A stretch of DNA of 28,911 bases from a virus. The notes beneath the pieces are model-generated. The model was given only the letters and a program-made list of their open reading frames with translations. It had not been told where the DNA came from and searched no databases. The DNA is taken from the IMG/VR virus record IMGVR_UViG_3300005527_000220, positions 1 through 28,911 of that record; one strand, given 5' to 3'. The stretch's first letter is position 1, and every line of letters starts with the position of its first letter. Below are positions 17,092 through 28,308 of the stretch, one piece after another. The position numbers and the translations under genes are program-made.

Positions 17092-17099
17092 TATTTATG
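17092..17099 (-). promoter_or_regulatory. Candidate late promoter upstream of gp25
   Basis: Read on the minus strand the sequence is CATAAATA, matching the NATAAATA late promoter of T4-like cyanophages (TATAAATA in T4). Transcription would start near 17086, giving a leader of about 24 bases before the gp25 ATG. It overlaps the stop codon of the upstream 402-residue gene. One such match in a 32-base gap is unlikely by chance, although AT-rich coding regions here contain several chance copies. Confidence 0.55.
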
Positions 17100-21226: not shown

Positions 21227-21899
21227 TTGTCATCAATTGCCTAAATTCATTCTCAACTCTATCAAGATAGATTGGATCAAGGAGTCTAATTTTTCTTCTC
21301 TTTTCGTTTTCTTCTTGTTCATAAGTATAGATAGAAACTGCTTTATTCTTTTTCAAAATTGTTACAGTATATGTCGGATATGTGGCTGTCTCACTAGAAA
21401 TGATCAAAGAAGAATCTGCTTCCGTTGGAAGAGAGACAGTTTGATTAGCGATCGCATTTGTTGTATAATTTACAGAGTATTCACTGATTCTAGAAGATTC
21501 GATTGTCTCATTTAGAATAACACCAGCATACGCGGAAGTAGTTTTGATTTCTCTTTCATAATGATGAACAGTTGTTTGTGTTTCTTGTAGAGTCATAGAA
21601 TACTTATTTTGAATATACTTATCTAACACTGCTACGCGCAATGGCCAATCATAGTGTGGATTTATTATGTTATTGAACAATAGAATAATCCAACTTCTAT
21701 ATGGATCGCCATATGCTTTGTGCGCTAAAGTGTCAGGTGTATCTTCATCAACAATTAGATACTCATAAGAGAGTTCTACATTATTCGCAACTTCTTTGAG
21801 GAAGTTATTTCTTGCAAAAATGTTTGTTACTACATTGACATTGATTGTGTTTTTGTCAAAGGTATATAATGTTTTTGGGAATGACTCGAAATACTTCAT
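21219..21899 (-). CDS. 53: Baseplate wedge protein gp53
   Basis: T4 gp53 (196 aa) clamps neighbouring wedges to each other and to the hub. The LysM-like core is clear at residues 48-87: YLIVDEDTPDTLAHKAYGDP followed by SWIILLFNNIINPHYDWPL. The N-terminal MKYFESFPKTLYTF is also typical of the family. At 226 residues it is slightly longer than T4; the extra lies in a Ser/Thr-rich stretch around 115-185. The ATG overlaps the gp48 stop by 1 base (TAATG), and the end overlaps the gp27-like start by 8 bases. This suggests tight translational coupling of tube cap, wedge and hub genes. Confidence 0.95.
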   Translation of the reverse strand: MKYFESFPKTLYTFDKNTINVNVVTNIFARNNFLKEVANNVELSYEYLIVDEDTPDTLAHKAYGDPYRSWIILLFNNIINPHYDWPLRVAVLDKYIQNKYSMTLQETQTTVHHYEREIKTTSAYAGVILNETIESSRISEYSVNYTTNAIANQTVSLPTEADSSLIISSETATYPTYTVTILKKNKAVSIYTYEQEENEKRRKIRLLDPIYLDRVENEFRQLMTNG

Positions 21900-23083
21900 T
21901 AGTAACCTTCGTCGATAAGTTTCTTGTGCATAATTTCGACTTCTTTGAATCGAAGCTGCATGCTAATTTCCACTGGCATACCATCTTTGAATGCAGTCCA
22001 TTGGCCAGCACTTCCATAGTTTACGTCGATACCTTGCAATACGCAAGTTGATAATCTAGGCAAATTTGTGTTTCTATATGGACCTACCATAAATTCAATA
22101 TCAAATTCTGATGGTGGGATAAAGTATCTTCCACGACCATTAGATGGGATTTCTGGAGCAGCGAAGAATCTAAATTTCTTTATAATCTCTCGAATAGCCT
22201 CTGCTTCTTTTGCGTTTCTTGGAGCAAACTTGAAATCAAACAAAAATTCTCTATTTTGAATATTCTTGAACAATAATTCAACCTGAGGATTCAATGCCAA
22301 CCCAGCAGAGAATAATAAAACATCCGTTATGCCTGCACCAAAATTCCCAGTTTTCTCAGCAATTAAACCTGCAGCCTCAGCACCAGTTCCAGTTCCTCGT
22401 GTCGCGCCCAATCCTGCCATAACTGAACTTTCAGTTCCACCTAAAATATCACTGCCAACTTGAGCTCCCAAACCAGCCTTACCTAATGCCTGCGTCAAAC
22501 TCACTTGATCGTAATCATTCACCAATTGTTGAGTTACTGTATCTGGCATATAAAGAGAGATGGTCGCTGCAGCGCGACGAGTTTTACGAGTTAGGTCGAT
22601 CCCAGAAACAATAAAAGCGGAAGCCGCAATACCAATACCAGAAGAAATTGTACTGCCTGCAAGTTCACCTGCAAATCTTCCCAAGTCTTTAGGAGAACCA
22701 AGAGCAGCGGTTACAGCCTCTCCTGCATTATTGATGACACCTTCAGCGGCTATGATAGTTGTGAGACCTGCAGTTGTTCTTGATGCAGCATCATCTCCGA
22801 GAGCATTTGATGATCCAGCTCCCAACCCAGCTCTGCGGTTCGTGTCAGCGAAAGATGCTACGTTCTGAGTTTTCACTGAATATTCAGATTTGTTCTGAAT
22901 CATCGGAATAAACTTGATCCAATGAAGATGTCGTTCGGTGTTTCCTACGCTCAATGGAAATCGAAGGTCGTCAAATTTGAATGGATTTTTGACCAGGCTT
23001 TTATTTACTCCTGTGGGTGAATTGCTCAATGTAGGCTGAGCGTTTCGTTTTGCATCTGCAGGAGTAGATTGTTGATTTGCCAT
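21899..23083 (-). CDS. 48: Baseplate tube cap gp48
   Basis: T4 gp48 (364 aa) sits on the hub and, with gp54, starts tail-tube polymerisation. Here 394 residues include an N-terminal block (FDDLRFPLSVGNTERHLHWI, then KFIPMIQNKSEY) and a C-terminal tube-fold domain starting LNPQVELLFKNIQNREF (264-280), continuing FKFAPRNAKEAEAI and ending FKDGMPVEISMQLRFKEVEI. These are strong family signatures. Between them, residues 85-260 are unusually rich in Gly and Ala with apolar stretches (SGIGIAASAFIVSG). The ATG at 23081-23083 is preceded by AGGG with 7-base spacing. It is the first gene of the minus-strand baseplate run, divergent from gp4. Confidence 0.92.
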   Translation of the reverse strand: MANQQSTPADAKRNAQPTLSNSPTGVNKSLVKNPFKFDDLRFPLSVGNTERHLHWIKFIPMIQNKSEYSVKTQNVASFADTNRRAGLGAGSSNALGDDAASRTTAGLTTIIAAEGVINNAGEAVTAALGSPKDLGRFAGELAGSTISSGIGIAASAFIVSGIDLTRKTRRAAATISLYMPDTVTQQLVNDYDQVSLTQALGKAGLGAQVGSDILGGTESSVMAGLGATRGTGTGAEAAGLIAEKTGNFGAGITDVLLFSAGLALNPQVELLFKNIQNREFLFDFKFAPRNAKEAEAIREIIKKFRFFAAPEIPSNGRGRYFIPPSEFDIEFMVGPYRNTNLPRLSTCVLQGIDVNYGSAGQWTAFKDGMPVEISMQLRFKEVEIMHKKLIDEGY

Positions 23084-23093
23084 TTAGAGACCC

Positions 23094-23101
23094 TATAAAT
23101 A
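23094..23101 (+). promoter_or_regulatory. Consensus T4-type late promoter before gp4
   Basis: An exact TATAAATA lies in the 22-base divergent gap. T4-type late promoters have this octamer about 6 bases before the transcript start, so transcription would begin near 23107, on or inside the gp4 ATG at 23106. The location in the only divergent gap and the perfect match make it the best promoter candidate in the window. The closeness to the start codon is unusual. Confidence 0.7.
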
Positions 23102-23105
23102 CTTG

Positions 23106-23540
23106 ATGGCTTACAGCGGTAAATTTAGTCCGAAAAATACCAATAAATATTTAGGTGACCCCACGAACATATGGTATCGATCATTATGGGAACGCCGAGT
23201 AATGGTGCACTTGGACGATAATCCAAGTGTGATCGAATGGTCAAACGAGGAAATAATCATACCTTATTTATCGCCTATTGACAATAGTTGGCATCGATAT
23301 TTTCCTGACTTTTTCGTTCGAGTTCGAAATAAGACAGGTATATCAGAGGCGATGATTCTAGAAGTAAAACCAAAGAGTCAGTCCGTTCCTCCTCAAAAGA
23401 AAACTAAAATAACTCGAAGTTACATCAAAGAAGTTGTGACATGGGGCGTGAATGAGGCAAAGTGGAAAGCTGCAGTTGAGTATTGTAAAGATCGAAACTG
23501 GAAATTTAGAGTTATTACTGAGGACGATTTAGGAATCTAA
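23106..23540 (+). CDS. 4: Head completion protein gp4 (nuclease-like fold)
   Basis: A 144-residue homologue of T4 gp4 (also called gp50/gp65), needed to complete DNA-filled heads. The N-terminus MAYSGKFSPKNTNKYLGDPT and YRSLWERRVMVHLDDNP are family signatures. The PD-(D/E)XK-type nuclease core is visible: E29 in LWER, D68 in HRYFPDFFV and E86-x-K88 in ILEVKPKSQ. I chose ATG 23106 rather than the TTG just before it because the family begins at MxYSGKF. There is no Shine-Dalgarno sequence at a useful distance; AGAGA ends 16 bases upstream. A TATAAATA late promoter ends 4 bases before the ATG. The stop overlaps the next start by 1 base (TAATG). Confidence 0.93.
   Translation: MAYSGKFSPKNTNKYLGDPTNIWYRSLWERRVMVHLDDNPSVIEWSNEEIIIPYLSPIDNSWHRYFPDFFVRVRNKTGISEAMILEVKPKSQSVPPQKKTKITRSYIKEVVTWGVNEAKWKAAVEYCKDRNWKFRVITEDDLGI
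23265..23272 (-). promoter_or_regulatory. Weak candidate late promoter for gp48, inside gp4
   Basis: On the minus strand this reads GATAAATA, a NATAAATA match, in the antisense strand of gp4. The predicted leader to the gp48 ATG would be about 175 bases. The minus-strand run must start from somewhere near here, since the divergent gap holds no minus-strand match. ATAAATA also occurs by chance in this AT-rich DNA. Confidence 0.3.
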
Positions 23541-25580: not shown

Positions 25581-25771
25581 CGCTTGGTTATGATAGTCTG
25601 AAAAATTACTACGCAACGAATTTTACATTGATGCAACACCACAAATATTCGTTGTCAGAATTAGATAATCTAATTCCCTGGGAAAAACAGATTTATGTGA
25701 AACTCTTAGAAAATCATGTGAAGGAACAAAACGAAAAACTCAAATTGGTACAGGCTCAAAGAAGTAGATGA
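25577..25771 (+). CDS. Small gp26-coupled protein, probable tail assembly chaperone partner
   Basis: A 64-residue helical protein (MTLGYDSLKNYYATNFTLMQ, then HHKYSLSELDNLIPWEKQIY) ending in a charged tail. The IPWEKxxYVxLL pattern recurs in small proteins between gp26 and the tape-measure-like gene of T4-like phages. Its start overlaps the gp26 stop (ATGA) and its stop overlaps the next start (ATGA). The only strong ribosome-site-like sequence, GGAGGG, ends 18 bases upstream, too far for normal initiation. Expression is therefore probably by termination-reinitiation or by the -1 frameshift described above, giving a gp26 fusion. It is not T4 gp51 (249 aa) by sequence or length. Chaperone function is inference from the layout. 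Confidence 0.75.
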   Translation: MTLGYDSLKNYYATNFTLMQHHKYSLSELDNLIPWEKQIYVKLLENHVKEQNEKLKLVQAQRSR

Positions 25772-28308
25772 AAAGTAATATCTCAGACAAAGACATAAAA
25801 AAACTTCGAGAACAATTACGAGAACTCGAAGGAAAGACTTCTCAGAAGAGTGCGAATCTTCTAGAGGAAGCAATTCGTTCTGAGACTGAGGGGCTTGGTC
25901 TTGTTTCAACTCTAAGAAAACAAAGAGAGATTCAAGAGCAGTGGCAAATTGCAACTGAAAAGACCACAGGATTTTTGAGTGGATTTCTAGAAGGCTTTGT
26001 TGGGGAAAAGGCAGGTAGAGCACTTTCTCTCAAATATGCAAGAGCAAGCGACGAAGAAGTGAAAAAGGCTCGTGACTTTTTCGATAAGTTCAAGAAATCT
26101 GGCGAGAAACAAGAAAAAGTTTCTGCTAAAAAGAATGAAAGAGTTTCAAAAGATTTCAAATCTATAAAGAAGATTGTAGTAGGCATACAAAAAGATATTC
26201 AAACGATTCGAAAGGCTATGACTGGAAAGTCTTCACCAGATGTAAAATCCGCTCAGTATTATTTCGATGAGAGAATGGCTGGTGGTGGAAGATATAAAGA
26301 TCGCGAAACAAATAAAATCGTAAGCAAAGATGTTGCACTCAAAGGCAGAACTGAGAATCTAACAAAGGCTATTATGGCTGATGAAGATCCAATGATTCGT
26401 CTTGCAGATACAGTTGATTCTATTTGGAAGAGTCTTGGACCATCAACCAAAGCACAGAAAACTGTTCATGAACGACTTGATGAACTGGAGGATGATATCG
26501 AAGCTGCTGACGATAGTAGTTGGCTTGATCTCTTGGGTGGAGGCGGTGGTCGTCGCGGAAGAAGAGGTCGTCGTGGTGGTCGTCGTGGTGGCATGGGTCG
26601 TCGTGGTGGCATGGGTCGTGGTGGCGGTATGCGTGGTCTTGGAATGGGTGGACTACTTGCTGGTGCTGCAGGTGGTTACTTGGCATACTCTGCTGTTGAT
26701 TCATTTAGAGATCCGAATCTAGAACAGTATAATCCAGATTTTCTAAAAGAACAGGCGATCATGGCTCGTGAGGGTGGAGATGCTGGTGCTACATCAGCAA
26801 TTCAAAATCAGATTACAGCACAAAAGACAGATATAAAACTTCAAGCAGGAGCCAGTGCAGCTGGTGTTGCTGGAGCAGTTGGTGGCGCCGTTGCAGTCAA
26901 GAAGATAGCACAAACTGCTGTTGTGAAAGCAACAAAATCAAAAGTCTGGGATCTTTTTGTGAAGTTTGTTGCAAAAAAATCACCATCTCTATTTGCTAAA
27001 ATTGGAGCACGACTTGCCCTTGCTGGTGGTCTTGCAACTGTTCCAATTTTAGGTTGGGTGAGCGCAGCTATAACTGTTGTTGGTAGTGTTTGGCTGGCAT
27101 GGGATCTCTATCAATTATGGAATGAATTTTCAGCATTGAGTGATGCAGAGAAAGAGCTCTATGATGATAAAGTTATGAAGCAAGCAGAACAACAAAGTTC
27201 AGCGACAGCAGCAAAAACCCCAACAACATCAACACCTGCAGCAGGTCAAGTTGGGGCTGCTCCGAAGGCACCAGCAACACCATCATTATTTGAAAGTGCA
27301 TCAATCAATGTTGGATCTGCGGTTTCAGGTGCTATTGCAAGTGCTAAAAGTTTCTTTGGTGGCGGACCATCAGGAAATGATCTGGCAAAGTATGTTAGAT
27401 TGAAAGACAGCAGTGTAAATTTGAATGGGTTAAATCCTCAACTCAAAGAAAGATTTGCAGCACTTGCAAAAGAATATAATGAAAAGACAGGACAAAAGAT
27501 TCAAGTAAACTCAGGATATCGTAGTTCAGAAGAACAAGCAGCTCTATATGCTAAAATTGGTCCACCTAATGCCGCACCTCCAGGAAGAAGTCGTCATGAG
27601 AGTGGATTAGCAATTGACATCAATTCAACTGATGCAAATAAAGCAATTGAACTTGGATTGATGGCAAAGTATGGATTTGTTCGTCCAGTTCGTGGAGAGA
27701 CGTGGCATGTTGAACCGATTGAGTCTGCAAAACGTGGACCAACACCAGATAATCCATACAAACCAGGTGCTCCTGTTGCAGTGGCGAATAATGGCAAAGT
27801 TGCTTCACCAGAAACTGGATCGAAACCACCAGCAAGTGTGGCACCACAGAGTGCAGCACCACAGAGTGCGGCACAAAGTTCTGGTTCTTCAATGGTTGCA
27901 TCTTCTGCAGAACCAACACAATCAATTTCTACACAGAGTGCGGCACAAAGTTCTAGTTCTTCAATGGTTGCATCTTCTGCAGAACCAACACAATCAATTT
28001 CTACGGAAACAAGCAGTTCATATGCAAACAGCAGCGCGCCTGCATCAACAATTACACCAATTCAAAGTGATCTTGGTGCTTCTGTGCAGCAACAAAGCAG
28101 TCAATTGGCATCAAATCAAATGACTGCTCAAGCACCTCAGGCGCCAGTTGTTGTGAATAACACTACACAGACATCTGCGAATCCATCGGCTGCACCAAAA
28201 CAAAATATACCAAAAGCGAACGCAAGAACTGCAGATAGTTCATTCACTCGAGCATTGGCTAGAGACTTTTCTCACCCAACAGCATTTACAACTGTCACGC
28301 TGATATAA
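25768..28308 (+). CDS. Tape-measure-like hub protein with M15 (VanY-type) peptidase domain
   Basis: An 846-residue protein following the gp26/small-ORF pair, where a tape measure or gp29 counterpart is expected. Residues 1-250 are charged helices. Residues 256-293 form an Arg/Gly patch (GGGGGRRGRRGRRGGRRGG) running into an apolar Gly/Ala stretch (290-310). A strong membrane-type segment spans 413-450 (LALAGGLATVPILGWVSAAI). Residues 540-655 are an M15/VanY metallopeptidase: NSGYRSSEEQAALY (581-594), SRHESGLAID (608-617, with zinc ligands H610 and D617) and GETWHVEP (643-650, with catalytic E644 and ligand H647). The C-terminal 200 residues are Ser/Gln/Ala-rich, contain a 72-base tandem duplication, and end ALARDFSHPTAFTTVTLI. 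The peptidase would cut peptidoglycan cross-links or stems during entry. The tape-measure role is inferred; the peptidase motifs are complete. Confidence 0.8.
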   Translation: MKSNISDKDIKKLREQLRELEGKTSQKSANLLEEAIRSETEGLGLVSTLRKQREIQEQWQIATEKTTGFLSGFLEGFVGEKAGRALSLKYARASDEEVKKARDFFDKFKKSGEKQEKVSAKKNERVSKDFKSIKKIVVGIQKDIQTIRKAMTGKSSPDVKSAQYYFDERMAGGGRYKDRETNKIVSKDVALKGRTENLTKAIMADEDPMIRLADTVDSIWKSLGPSTKAQKTVHERLDELEDDIEAADDSSWLDLLGGGGGRRGRRGRRGGRRGGMGRRGGMGRGGGMRGLGMGGLLAGAAGGYLAYSAVDSFRDPNLEQYNPDFLKEQAIMAREGGDAGATSAIQNQITAQKTDIKLQAGASAAGVAGAVGGAVAVKKIAQTAVVKATKSKVWDLFVKFVAKKSPSLFAKIGARLALAGGLATVPILGWVSAAITVVGSVWLAWDLYQLWNEFSALSDAEKELYDDKVMKQAEQQSSATAAKTPTTSTPAAGQVGAAPKAPATPSLFESASINVGSAVSGAIASAKSFFGGGPSGNDLAKYVRLKDSSVNLNGLNPQLKERFAALAKEYNEKTGQKIQVNSGYRSSEEQAALYAKIGPPNAAPPGRSRHESGLAIDINSTDANKAIELGLMAKYGFVRPVRGETWHVEPIESAKRGPTPDNPYKPGAPVAVANNGKVASPETGSKPPASVAPQSAAPQSAAQSSGSSMVASSAEPTQSISTQSAAQSSSSSMVASSAEPTQSISTETSSSYANSSAPASTITPIQSDLGASVQQQSSQLASNQMTAQAPQAPVVVNNTTQTSANPSAAPKQNIPKANARTADSSFTRALARDFSHPTAFTTVTLI
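26569..26616 (+). repeat. 18-base tandem repeat encoding the Arg/Gly patch
   Basis: Two perfect copies of cgtcgtggtggcatgggt lie at 26581-26598 and 26599-26616. They are preceded by a partial copy and followed by a degenerate copy (cgtggtggcggtatgcgt). They encode RRGGMG units, in frame, within the tape-measure-like gene. The block is markedly more G-rich than its surroundings. Confidence 0.85.
27860..28003 (+). repeat. 72-base tandem duplication in the tape-measure-like gene
   Basis: Copies at 27860-27931 and 27932-28003 differ at one base (G at 27883, A at 27955), changing Gly to Ser. Each encodes 24 residues including SMVASSAEPTQSIST. A shorter 15-base near-repeat (gcaccacagagtgca, then gcaccacagagtgcg) lies just upstream. 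The near identity points to a recent duplication in a disordered linker. Confidence 0.9.

Follow-up and report, generated by a model that had tools for sequence, protein, structure and literature searches.

The window analysed here is a stretch of viral DNA of 28,911 bases, in which the gene of a gp4-like head closure (head completion) protein (23106-23540, plus strand) and that of a gp48-like baseplate tail tube cap protein (21899-23083, minus strand; phrog_230 match) are divergent neighbours separated by an intergenic region of 22 bp (23084-23105). On the plus strand this region contains the T4-type late promoter octamer TATAAATA (23094-23101), followed by the spacer CTTG (23102-23105) and the ATG of gp4 (23106-23108). 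The octamer thus lies 4 nt 5' of the start codon, at the coordinates given in the initial annotation, and its complement continues into GGG, part of the ribosome-site region of gp48. On its 3' side gp4 is followed by a gene for a gp2-like DNA end protector; the octamer precedes virion genes, which belong to the late class. The gp4 protein also matches the Pfam model of the TnsA-like endonuclease N-terminal domain (PF08722, 9.5e-22), which would give this head completion protein a nuclease-like fold. In the hub/tape-measure region (25768-28308), a protein of 846 residues has Arg/Gly-rich repeats and a VanY-type D-Ala-D-Ala carboxypeptidase domain (PF02557, 2.4e-9, residues 555-625). No tRNA gene was found in the 28,911 bases.

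The start codon of gp4 appears to be correctly placed. The protein matches the head closure family phrog_218 (2.8e-57) with an alignment beginning at residue 1, ATG was found at the gp4 start in 78 of 78 relatives (among the matches listed, leaving out loci L075 and L081, whose matches lack the N-terminus), and the homologous ATG starts gp4 in the relatives that have a leader. These results agree with the earlier claim that the ATG at 23106 is the real start, and nothing was found in favour of the suggestion, made at the same time, that gp4 is also read from another start. The in-frame TTG at 23103 was rejected as a start, since in relatives the codon at -3 is TAG, GAG, TCT, TTT and others, even if TTG is still the commonest (26 of 68 short-spaced loci).

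The octamer occurs as a single perfect copy in the window when both strands are counted, and looser forms of it are not enriched there. Shuffled sequences contain 1.68 copies on average, thus the mere presence of the octamer is at chance level. To assess its placement, gp4 loci were collected by IMG/VR searches with the window protein, with proteins of its relatives and with RB14 gp4 (11 loci), and 16 loci of named phages were added. The matches listed comprised 317 gp4 loci, 316 of them with a start; after merging identical start regions and dropping loci with less than 50 nt of upstream sequence, 177 distinct start regions were kept. Loci with [ACGT][AC]TAAATA at 4-6 nt from the ATG were defined as the short class, consequently all of its 68 members carry this motif by definition. 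Among these 177 loci the distance between octamer and ATG was 4 nt in 42, 5 nt in 25 and 6 nt in one; no locus had a spacing of 7-17 nt, 76 loci had one of 18-50 nt (the long, or leadered, class), and in 33 the octamer was absent within 60 nt. In 20 of these 33 loci (L197, L265 and others) an octamer on the minus strand overlaps the gp4 start codon. Short spacing followed relatedness: among the matches listed, it was found in 63 of the 65 distinct viral contigs whose gp4 is at least 70% identical to that of the window, where the octamer stands 4-5 nt before the ATG, in 4 of 27 loci with 60-70% identity and in a single one (L207) of 85 below 60%, the more distant T4-like phages having mostly spacings of 18-50 nt. 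The two exceptions in the closest group are L143, where a minus-strand octamer touches the ATG, and L075, whose start was mis-called, as its match begins at residue 17. Calculated from the clade's own octamer rate, an octamer would fall 4-6 nt before the ATG by chance in about 0.0005 of the loci. A chance octamer was rejected on the basis of the shuffles, the bimodal spacing and this per-locus probability; because the spacing clusters at 4-6 nt across loci, it is the placement, and not the presence, of the octamer that is significant.

The position of the octamer is tied to gp4. In 66 loci its scatter was 0.52 nt (sd) relative to the gp4 ATG versus 3.63 nt relative to the divergent ATG. Moreover, the spacing is coupled to the base preceding the start codon: all 42 four-nt spacers, including the one in the window, end in G, and all 25 five-nt spacers end in a pyrimidine. 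A quick tree of gp4 required 2 changes for the short layout. The spacing and the -1 base changed 13 times each on it and coincided in every row; when independent pairs were counted, only one pair of coupled changes was on well supported branches and 13 were found on all branches.

Short spacing was also looked for at other genes. The contigs of 16 relatives and the window (689,908 bases in total, with G001, G003 and G013 included in part) contained 15 sites where TATAAATA stands 3-6 nt before the ATG of a long ORF; 55 permuted octamers gave 0.27 such sites on average and 2 at most. Thirteen of the 15 sites precede gp4, and one further gp4 was scored at 1 nt owing to a tandem ATG. The other two precede a HAD-like gene, a third copy of which has the octamer at 7 nt (L086, L113 and L115, 5-7 nt altogether). 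This gene was set aside as a second short-spaced case because the octamer overlaps the stop codon of the upstream gene. At other genes of the same contigs octamers were found 15-44 nt before the ATG (search range 13-45 nt), thus it is mainly gp4 that is short-spaced in this clade. An example for such a contrast within the same phage is the candidate leadered late promoter of a gp25-like gene in the window (CATAAATA, 17092-17099, minus strand), located 29 nt before the ATG. Between 60 and 110 kb of T4, 14 [TA]ATAAATA octamers have an annotated start at no more than 150 nt, and the smallest distance is 13 nt. The gp4 gene of the cultured Pelagibacter phage HTVC008M (L365:12944) is annotated as starting 5 nt past TCTAAATA, with T at -1; this is an ambiguous second case, since the Met homologous to the start of other gp4 proteins lies 42 nt downstream of the annotated one.

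A late promoter further upstream of gp4 was rejected, because none of the 64 short-spaced loci with enough sequence has another plus-strand octamer between -400 and -20. The initial annotation had pointed out that gp4 is not preceded by a Shine-Dalgarno sequence at normal distance, and this holds for the class: a Shine-Dalgarno tetramer was found in 10% of the short versus 50% of the long class, with median duplex energies of +1.1 and -3.3, respectively, although at a strict cut-off of -4.4 kcal/mol or better the two classes hardly differed (9% and 12%). In the window the pairing with the anti-Shine-Dalgarno sequence is weak (-2.9), and it involves bases upstream of the predicted RNA start. 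Bacteria are known to initiate translation on an AUG at the very 5' end of an mRNA (PMC9031893). A less structured 5' end of the putative leaderless gp4 mRNA was considered and rejected as the trend was opposite to expectation: the first 12 nt of the gp4 ORF are slightly more paired in the short class (mean unpaired 0.61) than in the leadered relatives (0.70).

To predict where RNA synthesis would begin, base frequencies downstream of the octamer were compared. In the leadered gp4 promoters (61 distinct) the highest purine frequency is at position 6 downstream of the octamer (0.82; A, 0.69), and T prevails at position 5 (0.77), where caution is needed as the pyrimidines of this plus-strand set overlap with sequence complementary to the ribosome site of the neighbour gene. 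The divergent minus-strand promoters (52 distinct) have a purine at position 6 in a proportion of 0.94 (A, 0.88) and a weaker preference for pyrimidine at 5. Purines are frequent also at positions 8-9. Leadered late genes of the clade itself (40 distinct) show a broad distribution, with the purine peak at position 5 (0.75) and 0.60 at position 6. In the five-nt class the A of the ATG occupies position 6, in the four-nt class position 5. Taken together, these frequencies suggest that RNA synthesis would begin at the AUG, 5-6 nt past the octamer. We read them to mean that transcripts of the five-nt class would begin at the A of the AUG, those of the four-nt class, including the window, at the A or at the preceding G. 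Two features do not fit easily: G at -1 of the four-nt class is unlike the pyrimidine usually favoured before an RNA start, and with the T4 numbering, in which the octamer spans -13 to -6 (PMC2988020), +1 of the four-nt class would be the U of the AUG, against a start at A or G.

If the latter numbering holds, the octamer could be a late promoter whose RNA starts inside gp4, at the U or G of the AUG, and serves only gp2 and the genes beyond it, gp4 being translated from a longer transcript. Besides the position of +1 at 4-nt spacing (PMC2988020), this explanation can draw on the G of the AUG, which after U makes a good initiator pair. It would, however, leave unaccounted for both the 4-6 nt spacing from the ATG and the base at -1 that is linked to it, and the DNA from -400 to -20, where the longer transcript would need its promoter, is antisense to gp48 and contains no T4-type plus-strand octamer in any of the 64 loci mentioned above; we therefore regard an internal start as quite unlikely. 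Even less probable, and in our view very unlikely, is that the octamer is not a promoter at all and has been preserved because its complement belongs to the gp48 leader and ribosome site (TATTTATAGGA, minus strand). A ribosome-site-like tetramer does adjoin the octamer in 57 of the 66 short loci, and in 35 of the 66 the octamer is exactly 10 nt from the divergent ATG. Such a role would not explain why the octamer keeps its distance from gp4 so much more strictly than from gp48 (see above) or why the base before the gp4 ATG is constrained. It is also countered by the replacement of TATAAATA by N-CTAAATA, a swap which should be tolerable to a late promoter, as this is the form described for Aeromonas phage Aeh1 (PMC2988020). 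Leaderless late mRNA of gp4, with 0-1 nt before the AUG, is thus the most likely interpretation, and the comparison of spacing, -1 base, upstream octamers and predicted start favours the leaderless late transcript that had been proposed from the window sequence.

Comparison of the relatives also revealed features on the opposite strand: the initial annotation had recognized the octamer before gp4 and missed minus-strand octamers inside the gene. The two divergent start codons are separated by a median of 22 nt in 66 short-class loci and of 43 nt in 74 loci of the long class. A minus-strand octamer was present upstream of the gp4 ATG in 73 of the 76 long loci, where it presumably serves the divergent gene, in 26 of the 33 loci without plus-strand octamer and in only 2 of the 68 short loci, in both of which it overlaps the gp4 ATG. 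Minus-strand octamers were found instead within gp4. In the window these are CCTAAATA (23148-23155, +42 in gp4, codons 15-17) and GATAAATA (23265-23272, +159, codons 54-56), both candidate late promoters of gp48. Among 67 short-class genes scored (one locus with less than 400 nt of gp4 was dropped) the two sites were occupied in 63 and 63, respectively, with no gene lacking both, as compared with 1 and 4 of 76 leadered genes, 11 of which have any internal minus-strand octamer. On the plus strand AATAAATA (23142-23149, codons 13-15) is present in 51 of the 67 short-class genes; its function is doubtful.

Both antisense octamers are read in gp4 as the codons TAT TTA, and these codons are frozen. 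Leu is encoded by TTA in 62 of 64 genes at codon 16 and in 62 of 63 at codon 55 (97-98%), whereas TTA makes up 27% of Leu usage in the clade. It may be asked whether the two octamers are merely by-products of the amino acid sequence, with gp48 being transcribed from elsewhere, because Leu16 and Leu55 are themselves conserved across the clade, and the codons of Arg30 (CGC, 80%) and Arg31 (CGA, 90%; about 23193-23198), which have no obvious motif, are also rather frozen. We think this unlikely, though it is the least improbable of the alternatives to promoters at these sites and before gp4. The two TTA codons rank first and second of the 33 four- and six-fold codons in synonymous freezing, and the conserved Leu codons 27 and 36 are without it (27-30%); Tyr15 and Tyr54 are the sole two-fold codons at 97% or above; most leadered relatives have K/R and I instead of these two Leu residues; and the intergenic minus-strand octamer is missing exactly where the internal ones occur. 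This last coincidence and the frozen codons suggest that the promoter on the gp48 side has moved into gp4. Transcripts from the two sites are predicted, by simple arithmetic, to start at about 23142 and 23259, with gp48 leaders about 59 and 176 nt long.

Considering both strands, we find it probable that a late promoter of the gp55/clamp type yields a leaderless gp4 mRNA and that the promoter on the gp48 side is located inside gp4. The first base transcribed by late RNA polymerase would be the A of the AUG or the G preceding it, and for the translation of gp4 ribosomes would recognize the AUG at the 5' end of the mRNA, with no Shine-Dalgarno sequence involved. The layout may go back to roughly a single event in a clade of uncultured T4-like phages, the shrinkage of the gp48-gp4 intergenic region from about 43 bp to about 22 bp. 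This shrinkage would have removed the gp4 leader together with the intergenic minus-strand octamer, leaving the late promoter of the gp48 side within gp4, at one or both of the frozen octamers. Of 14 related records searched, only 4 yielded a homologue of gp55, among them G020 and G025 of the short class; most of the others are fragments.

A more speculative extension, which we consider possible but doubtful, is that the late promoters of gp4 and gp48 point towards each other over the beginning of the gp4 coding sequence and that their transcripts exclude or silence each other, balancing head completion against baseplate assembly. RNA polymerases starting at about 23106 rightward and at about 23142 leftward would collide, and the 5' ends of the two RNAs would overlap and be complementary over about 37 nt (arithmetic), including the leaderless AUG. 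Leu16 and Leu55 of gp4 would then have been shaped by the promoters of the neighbour gene.

The arrangement can be compared with better known systems. The gene 4 - gene 53 region of T4 and RB14 resembles the window in having the same octamer, a divergent pair of gp4 and a baseplate gene, and a ribosome site of the neighbour adjoining the gp4 octamer. In T4 and RB14, however, the octamer is 26 nt before gp4, an AGGAG ribosome site is present and a minus-strand octamer lies between octamer and ATG, whereas the window clade is without leader, ribosome site and intergenic minus-strand octamer. Kyanoviridae phages (Melnitz, P-SSM2, S-8S55 and S-RSM4) also have TATAAATA or N-CTAAATA upstream of a divergent gp4, but at 23-43 nt. 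In Deinococcus-Thermus, a -10 region few bp before the ORF gives rise to leaderless mRNA, with a spacing requirement (PMC12340547). This is similar to what is proposed for gp4, except that cellular genes and the host RpoD are involved instead of a phage late sigma factor, and antisense promoter relocation is not described in the available text of that paper (PMC12340547).

Lambda cI is a repressor gene with a host-type promoter, not a late structural gene. It is named as a leaderless phage mRNA (PMC9031893), one beginning at the AUG, as proposed for gp4. According to a remark in the AR9 paper phage transcripts are often leaderless (PMC5312081), consequently leaderlessness in phages is not new as such. 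T4-type late promoters and leaderless mRNAs are each already known; in the open-licence PMC texts searched, no report was found of a T4-type late promoter that gives a leaderless mRNA or is relocated into a neighbour gene. Published late-promoter scans were restricted to intergenic DNA plus 10 bp (PMC3037559, PMC9004378), and scans of this kind would miss the antisense octamers in gp4. If our interpretation is correct, the late mRNA of an essential virion protein is leaderless in one clade of environmental T4-like phages, and gp55-type transcription can work from a promoter placed directly against the start codon. Promoter DNA would, moreover, constrain codons of a virion protein on the opposite strand, which can be detected through frozen synonymous codons. 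Gene callers relying on ribosome sites could mis-start genes of this kind.

The phage collection contained neither a near DNA match to the window nor an isolate of the short-spaced clade, the best gp4 identity in it being 58%. For the gp6-like baseplate wedge protein of the window, the best matches in that collection were the Pelagibacter phages HTVC008M and Mosig and the Melnitz phages (36-40% identity). In IMG/VR, a 40.5-kb contig (L235) encodes a gp4 protein identical to that of the window and has the same region upstream of gp48; it probably represents a very close relative.
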